The position numbers and the translations under genes are program-made. Below, piece by piece: positions 4,197-16,859 of a stretch of DNA of 32,083 bases. Within the stretch, counting starts at the first letter, position 1; the number at the start of each line of letters is the position of its first letter. The notes beneath the pieces were generated by a model. That model searched no databases. It was not told the DNA's origin and saw only the letters and a list, made by a program, of their open reading frames with translations. Source of the DNA: an uncultured Erysipelotrichaceae bacterium. Its GTDB lineage: Bacteria; Bacillota_I; Bacilli_A; Erysipelotrichales; Erysipelotrichaceae. The stretch spans positions 1 to 32,083 of the forward strand of contig CADCPY010000166.1 of NCBI GenBank assembly GCA_902803495.1, read 5' to 3'.

Positions 4197-5216
4197 ATGC
4201 GTTATCCGGAATTTTTAAAGAAACACGATACGATTGCCCACGTGGCTCCGAGCTTCGGTGTCACGGGCGAACCTTATACAACTCAGTACAAGGAAGCAAG
4301 ACGCAAATTCGAAGAACTCGGCTATACCATTCAGGAAGCGGAAAGCCTCTACCTGATGGGAAAAGCTGCCAGCAACACCGCCGAAGCAAGAGCCAGCGAA
4401 TGGATGAAGGCCTACCTCGATGAGAATGTGGACTTTGTGCATTCCGTCGCCGGCGGGGAACTCATGATGGAGATCCTTCCACTCATCGATTTCCACACGC
4501 TGATCCATGCCAAACCGAAATGGTTCATGGGCTACAGCGACAATACCTACATGACCTTCCTTCTCAATACCATCTGCGATACGGCTTCCCTTTACGGAAA
4601 CTGCGTGGAAAACTTCGGGATGGAGAAGTGGCATAAATCCTTAAAGGAATCTTATCAGATCATGCAGGGCAAGCGCTTCGAGCAGAAGAGCTATCCGAAA
4701 TTTGCGATCAACGATGTCAGCCACATCGAAGGCATGGAACTGGCAGATTACGACTTAACAGAAAAGAATGTCATCTACACCTCCACAGGCGAAGACATGA
4801 CACTGCACGGCCGTCTGATCGGCGGCTGCATGGACTGCCTGGTTACCTTAGTCGGTACTCCGTACGACCAGGTGGAAGAGTTCAAGGAACGCTACAGCGA
4901 AGACGGTGTTCTCTTCTATATGGAAGCGTATGACTACAGCCCGGTCGGAATCGTCCGCACCCTCCTTCAGATGAAGGAAGCCGGCTGGTTCGACGGCTGT
5001 AACGGCATTCTCTTCGGCAGAAGAAAACAGCGTGACCCGTTCTTCGGACTCACGTATGAAGAAGCACTGCACTCCGTGCTGGATGATTTGAACACTCCGT
5101 ATGTTTACGAGATGGACTTCGGACACGTACCGCCGGCCTGGACACTCATTTCCGGCAGCGTTGCGACGGTGGAAGTCAAAAACAGGAAGGCCAGCATTAC
5201 CTATGAATTGAAATAG
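4197..5216 (+). CDS. ldcA: LD-carboxypeptidase family protein (peptidase S66)
   Basis: 339 residues of the S66 (LdcA/MccF) family. The nucleophile motif GYSDNT puts Ser at 114. The other triad members are probably Glu243 (YMEAYDYSP) and His310 (DFGHVPP). Family members cleave the bond between meso-diaminopimelate and D-Ala in murein tetrapeptides during cell-wall recycling, or hydrolyse aminoacyl-nucleotide antibiotics such as microcin C (MccF). No signal peptide is seen, so it is cytosolic. It follows gltX after four bases with only a distant AAGGAAG, suggesting translational coupling. Because it is co-transcribed with two tRNA synthetases, an MccF-like role in resistance to aminoacyl-AMP synthetase inhibitors is worth considering alongside recycling. 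The symbol is by family, not proven specificity. Confidence 0.82.
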   Translation: MRYPEFLKKHDTIAHVAPSFGVTGEPYTTQYKEARRKFEELGYTIQEAESLYLMGKAASNTAEARASEWMKAYLDENVDFVHSVAGGELMMEILPLIDFHTLIHAKPKWFMGYSDNTYMTFLLNTICDTASLYGNCVENFGMEKWHKSLKESYQIMQGKRFEQKSYPKFAINDVSHIEGMELADYDLTEKNVIYTSTGEDMTLHGRLIGGCMDCLVTLVGTPYDQVEEFKERYSEDGVLFYMEAYDYSPVGIVRTLLQMKEAGWFDGCNGILFGRRKQRDPFFGLTYEEALHSVLDDLNTPYVYEMDFGHVPPAWTLISGSVATVEVKNRKASITYELK

Positions 5217-11010: not shown

Positions 11011-11212
11011 ATTCTTCACCCTCTTATAAATATCTTTTAGATACTAATATAATGCCATAAATAAATGTAACTTAAAAGGAAATTCGTCCTCCGAATTATG
11101 AAATTTTTGCCATTATTCTCCTAAATATTTTGAATCTTTTCGAAAATCATACTTTGGTAGGAGTGCAAAAAGATGGATATCCAGACTTACGGAATTATGC
11201 TATTCTAATTAT

Positions 11213-13759
11213 ATGGAAAAAACGAATGTTATCATTGCCGAAAACAGTCTTCATCCGGAGCTCCGCAACCTGCTCCTAGAGAAGCAGGAAGGCTATCTGA
11301 ATACCGATATTCTCAGCATGCAGAACTATCTGTTACGCACGGCGAGAGCGTCCAATGAAGAGAGCGAACTTCTTTTGAAGGTCTATCATACCGTACTGGA
11401 ACACAGGGATTCTCTCACTGCCTTAAAGGAGAGTGCGCAGTATCCTTTCTTTGCCATGGAACTTGTATCCTTCCTTAAGGAAATGGCATCCTTTTCGATT
11501 GCCTATGAGTCTTTACCGGAGAGCACCCAGATTCAAAAGTAACTCAAATATCTTATCTCCCTCTTTCTGGATCTGCCGCTGGCGGAAAAGAAATATACGG
11601 CCTATCTGAACGAACTCAAAGATGCCTCCAATGTATCTTTTGTAAACTCCCCGGTCTTCTCTGCCTTGGAAGACAAACGCCGCAGCATCTTACTCTCCTG
11701 CGGTGCCAAGCCAATCGAAGCCGAAGAGTTCAAAGTGGAAGACGTTCATTTCCTGATTGCCCAGAACAAGCGGCAGGAAGTGGAAGCACTGGCACAGTAC
11801 ATCTTTTCGCATGAAGATCCACTCGAAGACTACCGCATCATCTGCGGCGATGAGGAATATCTCAGCAGCATTCAGCGCATCTTTGAGCGCTACCATATTC
11901 CGCTGAATACGTCCTTGATCCGTAAGACCCCGGCCATCCTGGTCCGCTTTGTTGCTCTTTGCGAGTATCAGAGAAACAAAAACCGGGATACCTTGAAATC
12001 CTTACTGTTAAGCGGGGCCTTCCCGGACTGTTACCATATGAGCCGGCTGCGTCAGCTTGCCCACTATTCCTCTCTTTCCGAAATGCGCTCCTTAAATGTG
12101 GTAACCGAGGAAAGAGATTTAAAGGATCTCTATCAGAAAGCCATGGAGGAATTCGACGCCCATATGGACGCGATCGCCGAAGTGGAAAAGGAAGGAAAAT
12201 CCCTGCAGGAGATCATCCGCACCGCCTTTGAGATTACGGTTAGCACCATTGCCAATGACAGCGAAAAAGAGATCTGTTTACTGATTAAAAACACCATTGA
12301 AAACTATGTTTCCCTCTATGCGAACCTGGACGAACTCTTCCTTCTCTTATCGGGTATTTCCTATGTCTATGAAGGTAGTTCCGGCGGGGTCCGCTTTACC
12401 AAGATGGAAAACTCCTATACACTCGCACCGAAGATCACCGTGGTATTGGGAAGCGCCAATCTGCCGGATTTCCGCTTCTTTAACGGTATCTTTGATGAAG
12501 ACTACTACAGCCTTTTGGACTATCCTTCCAAGGAGGAACGTTACAACCTGATCGAAAAAGCAACCAGAGAGATGCTGCTGCACTCGAAACGGTTGCTTGT
12601 CTCTTTCCCGATTGCCGATTACAGCGGCAAGACAGTCAATTTGAATGCCTTCTGGGAAGAATTAATGAATGAATACGGCGTGAAAAAGGAACTCTGGCCG
12701 CTAGTTGAAGGCGGTGCTTTGCCTTCCTACAAGCATAAGATCAGCAGCGCAAAAGCCGAAGAGATCTTTCTTAAGGACGGAGCCGTTCCGGGTTCCATTT
12801 CCTCCTTTGAGAAATACTTTAACTGCCCGTATTCCTACTTCCTTTCCTATGGCTTAAAGCTGAAGAAAAAGGAATACGAGATCGGTCCTGCTCAGATCGG
12901 CACCATTCTGCACAGCATTATGGAACAGCTGATCAACACCTACGGCAAGGACTACTACCGTCAGGAAAAAGATACCTACATCAAATATATTGAAGAGGCC
13001 TTTACGCCGTTATATGCCTCCTATCCGACCCTGCATCCGATGATCGATAATTTGAAGGCCAGGCTCACCAGCCACTTCTTCTCATCCTTGGATGCCTTAA
13101 GCCGCATTGAGGAAGTATCCACGTACGAACCGTTGAAAGCGGAAAAGAAATTCCTTACGGAACTGCCGCTGGATCCGCCGATCCGTCTGAACGGCATTGT
13201 AGACCGCATTGACATCAGCGAAAAAGGCTACCGCGTCATTGACTACAAGAGCGGCAACAAAGCCCTCTCCCTGCCGAAGATCCGTGCCGGACTGCAGCTG
13301 CAGCTCTTAACGTATCTGATGATTCTGGAAGATACCATGGCACGCGCTCCGCACGGGACCTATTACTTCTCCTTTACGGATGAAAGCATTGACGTCATTG
13401 CCGGATCCTTCGCCAAGCGCACCAACTCGACAACTTTCATGGATGAGCTGGACTGGAGAGAAGACTATCAGAACAATCATAAACTCGTCGGTGTTTCCCT
13501 TACGGAACTGCCGGACGATCTCAAGGAATATGTGAAATCGCTCAAGCAGAACGACTATCAGGAATTCAAGGCGGTCTTACTGCAGCTCTACTCCTATCTG
13601 GGAGAACAGCTTTTACAGGGTAAGATTGCTCCGTTACCGGTAGAGACTGCCTGTCAGTATTGCGATTTCAAGGGAATCTGCCACTATTATGAAGATCCGC
13701 TGAAAGCCAAGGATGCGGATATCATCGCAAGAATCGAGGAAGCCCATGGAGTTCAGTAA
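11213..13759 (+). pseudogene. addB: AddB/RexB helicase-nuclease subunit interrupted by one in-frame TAA
   Basis: 849 codons in one frame from ATG 11213, with a TAA at 11540-11542 (codon 110) and no other stop. Sense resumes at once as LKYLISLFLDLPLAEKKYTAYL, so this is a point nonsense change (GAA to TAA would restore the frame) and not an indel. The C-terminal AddB nuclease is intact: GIVDRID (Asp664) and VIDYKSG (Asp677, Lys679). So are the four cysteines of the 4Fe-4S clasp: C538 (FNCPYSY), C814, C817 and C823. With AddA it would process double-strand breaks for RecA-dependent repair. It is shorter than B. subtilis AddB (about 1160) and lacks a visible N-terminal Walker A. The start has no Shine-Dalgarno and follows TATTCT by six bases. 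The C-terminal part alone has no good start (only TTG 11666, no ribosome binding site). Confidence 0.8.
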
Positions 13760-16700
13760 TCAGCAGCGAAAAGCCATTGACAGCCGTAATAAAAACGTTG
13801 TGGTCAGCGCCAGTGCCGGCGCCGGGAAGACAACGGTTTTAGTCGAGCGCTTAACGCGGAGAATCATTGACGACGGTGTCGATGTGGACCGCATTCTGGC
13901 CACGACCTTTACCGAAGCGGCTGCCGGAGACATCAAGAAAAAACTGACCCGTTCCCTGCGTGATGCCTATCAGAAATCACAGGATGCCCGTCTGAAACGG
14001 CAGATTGCCTTACTGGCGGATGCGGATATTTCCACTCTGCATTCCTTCTGTTTAAAGATCATTAAGAAATACTACTATGTGATCGGGCTGGACGTTTCCA
14101 TCACCAACAACATCTTTGATGAAACCTCCACCAACTACTTTAAGAGCGCTGCCCTCTTCCGCACCTTTGATGCGGCTTATAAAACCAACAGCCCGGCCTT
14201 TATTGAACTGTTGGACCGGCAGTCCTCTTCCATCACGGCAACCGTAATGCTGGAAGAAAGCATCAAGAAGCTGGCAACGGCTGCCCTGTCGCACTATGAC
14301 TATGAAGGCTGGCTCAAAAAGAGTGCCTCCCGCTATAAAAGCTACAGTTCCCTTTCCGAATTGCCGGAAGAGATCCTGGACCTTTTCTATCAGCGGCTGA
14401 ATGACTTCTATGAGATCTACCGGAACCTGTTAAAAGAAGCCTTACTGGCCTATGCCGACGAAGGCAAGGAAGAACCGCTGGTCCCATTACAGTTAAAGAT
14501 CCAGCATCTTGAGCAGCAGGTCAAACCGTGCCTGGAGAACCGGGATTATATGGCGTTCCGCAAAGCCATTGCGGAGAATGCGGATATCAACGTCAAAAAA
14601 CCGGCCAAATGCACGGGAAGTGACTTATTAAATAAAGCCTACGACACTTATGCCAAAGTATTAAAATATCTCTTTACGGAAACCGTCTTCTTAAAAGACC
14701 TCAAGGACAATGAAGCCGTGGCGCAGGAACTGGTTTCTCTGACTCTGAATTATCTGAAGGAATACCGCCAGTTAAAGGCGGAAGCCAAAGGCATTGAGTT
14801 TGACGATATGGAACGCTATGCCCTGGATATCCTCAAGGCCGACAACGGCAGTATCGCGAAGGCCTTACGGGAACACTACATCGATATCCTGGTGGATGAA
14901 TTCCAGGATACCAACTATGTCCAGCATGAGATCATCAATCTGATTGCCAAAGAAAACAACGTCTTCCGGGTGGGAGACGTCAAGCAGTCCATCTACCGCT
15001 TCCGGAACGCCAAGCCTGCCATCATGCAGTCTTTGATCACCTCTCCGGGCGAGTACGATGAGATCTTATATCTGAATCAGAACTACCGCAGCAGCGGTGC
15101 GCTGATCACCTTCAACAACGACCTCTTTACCCGCTTAATGAATCTGGAACACCGTCCGGTTTACTTCCCGAAAAACGACCTGGTCTCTCCGGGAACGGAA
15201 GAGCAGAAACAGGAAAGCTATCCGGTGGAATTCTTAATGGTAACACAGAGCAAGGAAGAGGACGATTCCATGATTCCGGGTGAAAAGAAAGCCTCCCGCA
15301 TTGCGGAAAAGATATTGGAATTAAAAAAGCAGGATCCTTCTCTCTCTTATAAAGACTTTGCGGTACTGGTCAATGCCAACCGCAACAAGATCCTGATTCA
15401 GAATGTTCTGACCTCCTACGGAATCCCGTCCTTCGGCGGAGAATCCCTGGGGTTATATCAGTCTTCCGGCGTCAAAGCCATCTTAAGCTTTTTGGAATAT
15501 ATGGAAGATCCGTCCAACCGGATTGCTTTGAATTCGATCCTTGTCACCTTCTTCCGGTATGACGATGAGAAACTGCTCTCCGTCTATCAGAATGGACTCA
15601 AGGAAACGGACCCGGAGACTTATAACACGATCTGGCGGATTGCCAAGTCGAATCTGACGCTGGGCGATACGGTCAATGCCCTGCTGCGTCTCAATCATTA
15701 CTATGAAGACTTAAATGACGACAACCAGAAAGCCAATATTGACCTTTTCCTGGATGTCGTTGACCGTCGGGATAAAGAAGGCGTCACGGTGGAACGATTC
15801 CTGGACTTTATCAACAGTGCCGTGGATGACAATGCCGCGGAAGCCTCCCTCAGCAATGACGATGCCGATGCGGTCAAGATTATGAGTATCCACCACTCCA
15901 AAGGTCTGGAGTTCCCGGTGGTCTTCCTTTTCAGTAAGGACCGCACCAGTGTATCCCGCGCGGACAGCTATGCCTTTATCCATTCCGACTACGGCTTCAG
16001 CATTCCTTCCCTGCAGTATCCGAAGAAATACAAACGGGAGAATGTCATTTCCCTCGCCCTGAAATATCAGGATCAGGTGGAAGAGATTGAGGAAAGCATC
16101 CGTGTGCTCTATGTGGCCTTAACACGGGCCAAGCACCGCTTATATATCGTCGATGTCCGCGATCCGGAAAAGAAAGAGGATCCGTTTACCTTCGGTTCCC
16201 TCTTCTCCAACAGTTATACCTCCTGGATGATGGCCCTGCATGAAGACTGCCATTACCAGACGGTATCTTTCAAGGGCATTGACGAGAAAGACATCACGGA
16301 ACTGTTACAGAAGGAAGAGAAAAAATTCATCTATCCGCGCTACGGCAAACAGGTGGATGAAATTGAAACGCTTTCCCCTTCTTCGACCGAAGCTTCCCGT
16401 GCGGATCTGACGTTGCGCTTTGAGAAGAACACTGCCGCCCAGATCGGTACTGATGTTCATGAAGTCTTTGAACTTTTACCGGATACCCTCTGGAGTAAGG
16501 AAGAGATCCTTTCGCACTTACGGGATGACTTGAAGCACTATCTGCCGGCCTTTGAAGTCTTCCGCGATTCCGATCTGTATCATAAGATGCTGAGCGGAAC
16601 CATTTATAAGGAACTGCCGTTCTTAACAAAGATCGACGGCAAGATCATTCACGGCTATATCGATATGTGCTCCATAACCGATACTGAAGTAATCGTGGTC

Positions 16701-16859
16701 GACTTTAAGACCGACAGGAATGTGACGGCGGAAGATCTGATCGAGCGCTACACCAGTCAGATCAAATTATATAAGGATTCCATGAAAACTCTCTGTCCGG
16801 ATAAAGCGGTCAGCGGATATATCTATTCCGTAACCTTAAAACAGTTTATCGCATTATAA
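13746..16859 (+). CDS. addA: ATP-dependent helicase/nuclease subunit AddA (RexA)
   Basis: 1037 residues from ATG 13746. UvrD/SF1 helicase motifs run in order: Q-motif NQQRKAI, Walker A SASAGAGKTT (21-30), LVDEFQDTN (Walker B, about 382-390), VGDVKQSIYRFR, NYRSS, and LYVALTRAKHRLYI (motif VI). The C-terminal RecB-family nuclease shows HGYIDM and VVDFKTDR (about 985) followed by QIKLYKDSM. AddA supplies the 3'-5' helicase and one nuclease of AddAB, unwinding DNA ends and responding to Chi. It is shorter than the 1230-residue B. subtilis protein. Its start overlaps the end of addB by 14 bases with GAGGAAG just upstream, typical of coupled subunits. If the addB stop is real, AddA may be under-translated or lack its partner. 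Confidence 0.93.
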   Translation: MEFSNQQRKAIDSRNKNVVVSASAGAGKTTVLVERLTRRIIDDGVDVDRILATTFTEAAAGDIKKKLTRSLRDAYQKSQDARLKRQIALLADADISTLHSFCLKIIKKYYYVIGLDVSITNNIFDETSTNYFKSAALFRTFDAAYKTNSPAFIELLDRQSSSITATVMLEESIKKLATAALSHYDYEGWLKKSASRYKSYSSLSELPEEILDLFYQRLNDFYEIYRNLLKEALLAYADEGKEEPLVPLQLKIQHLEQQVKPCLENRDYMAFRKAIAENADINVKKPAKCTGSDLLNKAYDTYAKVLKYLFTETVFLKDLKDNEAVAQELVSLTLNYLKEYRQLKAEAKGIEFDDMERYALDILKADNGSIAKALREHYIDILVDEFQDTNYVQHEIINLIAKENNVFRVGDVKQSIYRFRNAKPAIMQSLITSPGEYDEILYLNQNYRSSGALITFNNDLFTRLMNLEHRPVYFPKNDLVSPGTEEQKQESYPVEFLMVTQSKEEDDSMIPGEKKASRIAEKILELKKQDPSLSYKDFAVLVNANRNKILIQNVLTSYGIPSFGGESLGLYQSSGVKAILSFLEYMEDPSNRIALNSILVTFFRYDDEKLLSVYQNGLKETDPETYNTIWRIAKSNLTLGDTVNALLRLNHYYEDLNDDNQKANIDLFLDVVDRRDKEGVTVERFLDFINSAVDDNAAEASLSNDDADAVKIMSIHHSKGLEFPVVFLFSKDRTSVSRADSYAFIHSDYGFSIPSLQYPKKYKRENVISLALKYQDQVEEIEESIRVLYVALTRAKHRLYIVDVRDPEKKEDPFTFGSLFSNSYTSWMMALHEDCHYQTVSFKGIDEKDITELLQKEEKKFIYPRYGKQVDEIETLSPSSTEASRADLTLRFEKNTAAQIGTDVHEVFELLPDTLWSKEEILSHLRDDLKHYLPAFEVFRDSDLYHKMLSGTIYKELPFLTKIDGKIIHGYIDMCSITDTEVIVVDFKTDRNVTAEDLIERYTSQIKLYKDSMKTLCPDKAVSGYIYSVTLKQFIAL

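Follow-up and report, generated by a model that had tools for sequence, protein, structure and literature searches.

The RexB-like addB gene of an Erysipelotrichaceae metagenome bin is interrupted by a single in-frame TAA codon that is most likely an ordinary artefact and not a sign of gene loss. Single-base stops of the same kind were found in the sole metK gene and the sole full pheT gene of the same assembly, which makes an assembly or sequencing error the most economical explanation. A one-base consensus error in the draft bin is considered highly probable as the origin of the TAA.

The window, i.e. the complete stretch of DNA that was analysed (32,083 nucleotides), is contig 166 of a draft bin of 195 contigs and 1.84 Mb belonging to the family Erysipelotrichaceae. 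Completeness and contamination of the assembly are 91.66% and 5.52%, respectively. The closest named relatives are members of the same family, many of them metagenome bins.

The addB reading frame

Gene addB is located on the plus strand (11213–13759) and encodes 848 amino acids if read through. Starting from the ATG at position 11213, the frame runs ...ACC CAG ATT CAA AAG TAA CTC AAA TAT..., with the extra TAA at positions 11540–11542 as codon 110. Reading of the frame thus bears out the sequence-only reading, which had placed a single TAA between AAG and CTC, followed by 739 codons in the same frame. These correspond to 738 sense codons plus the terminal TAA at 13757–13759. Beyond codon 110, neither a further in-frame stop nor an indel was found between 11213 and 13759, again as claimed before, and apart from this codon the gene bears no sign of decay. 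A single substitution would turn the TAA into a Glu codon.

The adjacent addA gene (13746–16859, plus strand) is an intact open reading frame of 1037 codons for amino acids, which was identified with TIGR02785 (E 2.5e-138). Its start at 13746 overlaps the 3′ end of addB by 14 bases. No obvious Shine-Dalgarno sequence was observed at the addB start (11188–11215), and a −10-like sequence, TGCTATTCTAAT, is located directly 5′ of it. Based on these two features of the sequence, a leaderless start of addB at 11213 is possible.

Identity and conservation of AddB

The part of addB downstream of the stop matches the AddB model TIGR02773 with an E-value of 9.6e-35 and 119.5 bits, which is well under the curated equivalog cut-off of 903.7 bits. 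Since this cut-off is not reached, the assignment to AddB is based on the nuclease domain, the cysteines, synteny and the match to a solved structure. A C-terminal PDDEXK_1 nuclease domain (PF12705, E 1.2e-35) covers residues 418–714 of the downstream part, and the Fe-S cysteines C538, C814, C817 and C823 around it are invariant in 29 relatives. The earlier statement that nuclease residues and Fe-S cysteines are intact is therefore correct. The gene is adjacent to addA, and a search of solved structures with an alignment-based profile yielded Bacillus subtilis AddB (3u44_B, E 1.6e-48).

The AddB of the window shares with B. subtilis AddB (PDB 3U44/3U4Q/4CEH) the PDDEXK nuclease domain, the four-cysteine Fe-S signature and the addA gene located downstream. 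It differs in its length (848 compared to 1166 amino acids) and, like the AddB proteins of its family relatives, in the lack of an obvious N-terminal Walker A motif. Unlike the B. subtilis gene, the consensus of the window gene carries one in-frame TAA.

Each of the 29 nearest family members encodes AddB in one open frame of approximately 830–950 codons, with about 30% identity to the protein of the window. The 109 residues 5′ of the stop align with the N termini of these proteins, and none of the 29 is split at the position matching codon 110. As the relatives read through this position in a single frame, the pieces of 109 and 738 codons constitute one gene. The column of codon 110 is part of the motif LP...(K/R)-E-L-K and is occupied by Glu in 25 and by Asp in 4 of the 29 relatives. 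Across 65 sequences taken from named records, a broader set that shares members with the former and takes in more distant sequences, Glu was found 49 times and Asp 6 times.

Of 44 columns that are invariant in the 29 relatives, 43 are kept in the AddB of the window, among them C538, H567, D664, D677, K679, Q695, C814, C817 and C823; the exception is V663 in place of Ile. This degree of conservation is expected for a functional addB, and an isolated lesion with a conserved remainder is the pattern looked for in a spurious pseudogene. The genome collection and viral contigs contained no addB copy of the same genus or species (AddA was used as an additional query against the viral contigs). A scan of the genome collection with the protein alone, which may omit very near records, also gave no close AddB copy.

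That the stop is real and AddB is nevertheless produced, either as two fragments or by re-initiation at a start beyond codon 110, is very improbable. In-frame ATG, GTG and TTG codons are present downstream, the first being TTG at codon 152, but the first nine in-frame starts lack a well-spaced Shine-Dalgarno-like sequence in a simple pattern test. The first start preceded by such a sequence is the ATG at codon 318, the use of which would cost more than a third of the protein. The lack of a split AddB in the 29 nearest relatives also argues against this explanation.

Equivalent stops in other genes of the assembly

Interrupted genes were searched for in the window and in a systematic sample of stretches of 60 further contigs (8 read as N), which together provide about 545 kb of readable sequence, or about 30% of the bin. 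The scan evaluated coding potential on both sides of in-frame stops and was complemented by inspection. A version with 25 codons per side missed the addB stop, and a version with 60 codons per side recovered it near the threshold (5.1 bits), so the number of interrupted genes is to be regarded as a minimum. Most other hits were judged by eye to be either a gene end followed by a neighbour in the same frame or shadow frames (e.g. L154:17679 and L169:8523).

Besides addB, three genes in this sample are cut by one in-frame stop each. In pheT (L125 = G000:C125, minus strand), a TGA at 4914–4916 separates ILDVS from TPNRNDC. In metK (L139 = G000:C63, plus strand), a TAG at 2461–2463 precedes SAEID. 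The third gene encodes an S33-type alpha/beta hydrolase (L138 = G000:C53, minus strand), in which a TAG at 11494–11496 precedes PNLPYFMFGHSMGS, shortly before the GHSMG motif. In all three cases, the stop is flanked by Pfam domains of the same protein.

A family-wide metK table was left out as a control because terminal and internal stops are mixed in it; instead, loci aligned residue by residue were used. The position of the metK TAG is occupied by Gln in 27 of 30 relatives, with two of the other three rows being visibly gap-shifted. The pheT TGA replaces a near-invariant Leu (20 of 23 relatives). No internal stop was found in the aligned metK (n = 30) and pheT (n = 23) parts of the relatives. 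In genome-wide searches, neither another metK nor another full pheT was found, which leaves the two interrupted genes as the sole full copies in the assembly.

Both MetK and PheT are essential bacterial proteins, and stops in their genes are therefore not credible in a growing cell. With no intact second copy of either gene, the single stops observed here cannot all be real. An equal lesion in indispensable genes of the same assembly points to a spurious pseudogene, and we infer that the stop in addB arose from the technical cause that also produced those in metK and pheT. According to this explanation, a miscalled base or an assembly artefact would have produced the TAA at 11540–11542. The organism most likely possesses an intact single-frame addB next to its intact addA, and the product would be an ordinary AddAB helicase-nuclease. 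The length of the window contig (32 kb), which is long for this assembly, may reflect better than average coverage and would then count against an artefact.

Pseudogenes with internal stops have been described as often being errors of low-coverage assembly (PMC11017572). The case presented here resembles those of Cooley and Wright (2024) (BMC Genomics 25:365, PMC11017572) in showing isolated in-frame stops in otherwise intact genes, several per draft assembly. That study compared paired near-identical genomes together with reads, whereas our argument draws on relatives and on essential genes present in a single copy.

A very recent genuine nonsense mutation, by which the sampled strain, or some members of the population, would have lost AddB and AddA would be left without its partner, appears unlikely. 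The addAB genes are dispensable in many bacteria and one substitution is sufficient; as addB is not essential, its stop could be real even if those in metK and pheT are artefacts. However, metK and pheT, both single-copy, carry the same lesion, which indicates that events of this class are mostly technical in this assembly, and the remaining addB residues show no relaxation. A relative (L056, OMYM01000176.1, rumen bin RUG087) also carries one in-frame TAG in addB, at a different and poorly conserved position, but the locus itself comes from a fragmented and contaminated metagenome bin (apparently G059, with 590 contigs and 10% contamination). Its TAG may likewise be an artefact of this type.

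Among the explanations considered in the sequence-only reading (recent decay, error or readthrough, with no preference given), error is now favoured on the basis of the metK and pheT parallels, while decay is not. The loss of AddB with a partnerless AddA, which had been outlined as a consequence, is not supported either, given that the same lesion affects the sole metK and the sole full pheT, where loss is not viable.

Readthrough of UAA or its reassignment to sense, the third of these explanations, is extremely improbable, and the same low probability is assigned to the assumption that all four interrupting stops (addB, metK, pheT and the hydrolase gene) are real and tolerated by general stop-codon suppression. 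The interrupted genes include essential ones and their frames are intact past the stop, as expected for readthrough or reassignment. However, all three stop codons (TAA, TGA and TAG) occur within the four genes and all three are also ordinary terminators, which argues against recoding. Long open reading frames terminate with TAA in 217, TAG in 81 and TGA in 72 cases, and there is thus no single stop codon that is read as sense and unused as a terminator. No suppressor tRNA was present among the six tRNAs of the sampled contigs, an incomplete sample, and no notable RNA fold was predicted downstream of the addB stop (z −1.08).

Estimated error rate and implications

With the codon usage observed here, a random substitution creates a stop in 4.36% of cases. 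Given the four stops detected across 466,548 coding bases, the rate of base errors is then approximately 2e-4 per base (Poisson range about 5e-5 to 5e-4). By extrapolation, about 13 false stops are expected genome-wide, which is a minimum because the scan is not fully sensitive. A single false stop in the window hence needs no special cause.

The consensus-error explanation guards against AddAB being wrongly reported as lost, and it flags this assembly as one with roughly a dozen extrapolated false stops. It also provides a simple check for draft assemblies: where an isolated stop is found, the same lesion should be sought in single-copy essential genes before decay is called.

Other features of the window

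No Rfam match was obtained in the window. On the minus strand, between 28789 and 31984, a ParA gene is located between two genes of the ParB family, next to rsmG (gidB). This cluster looks like the usual origin-proximal arrangement of Firmicutes (noc, spo0J-like).
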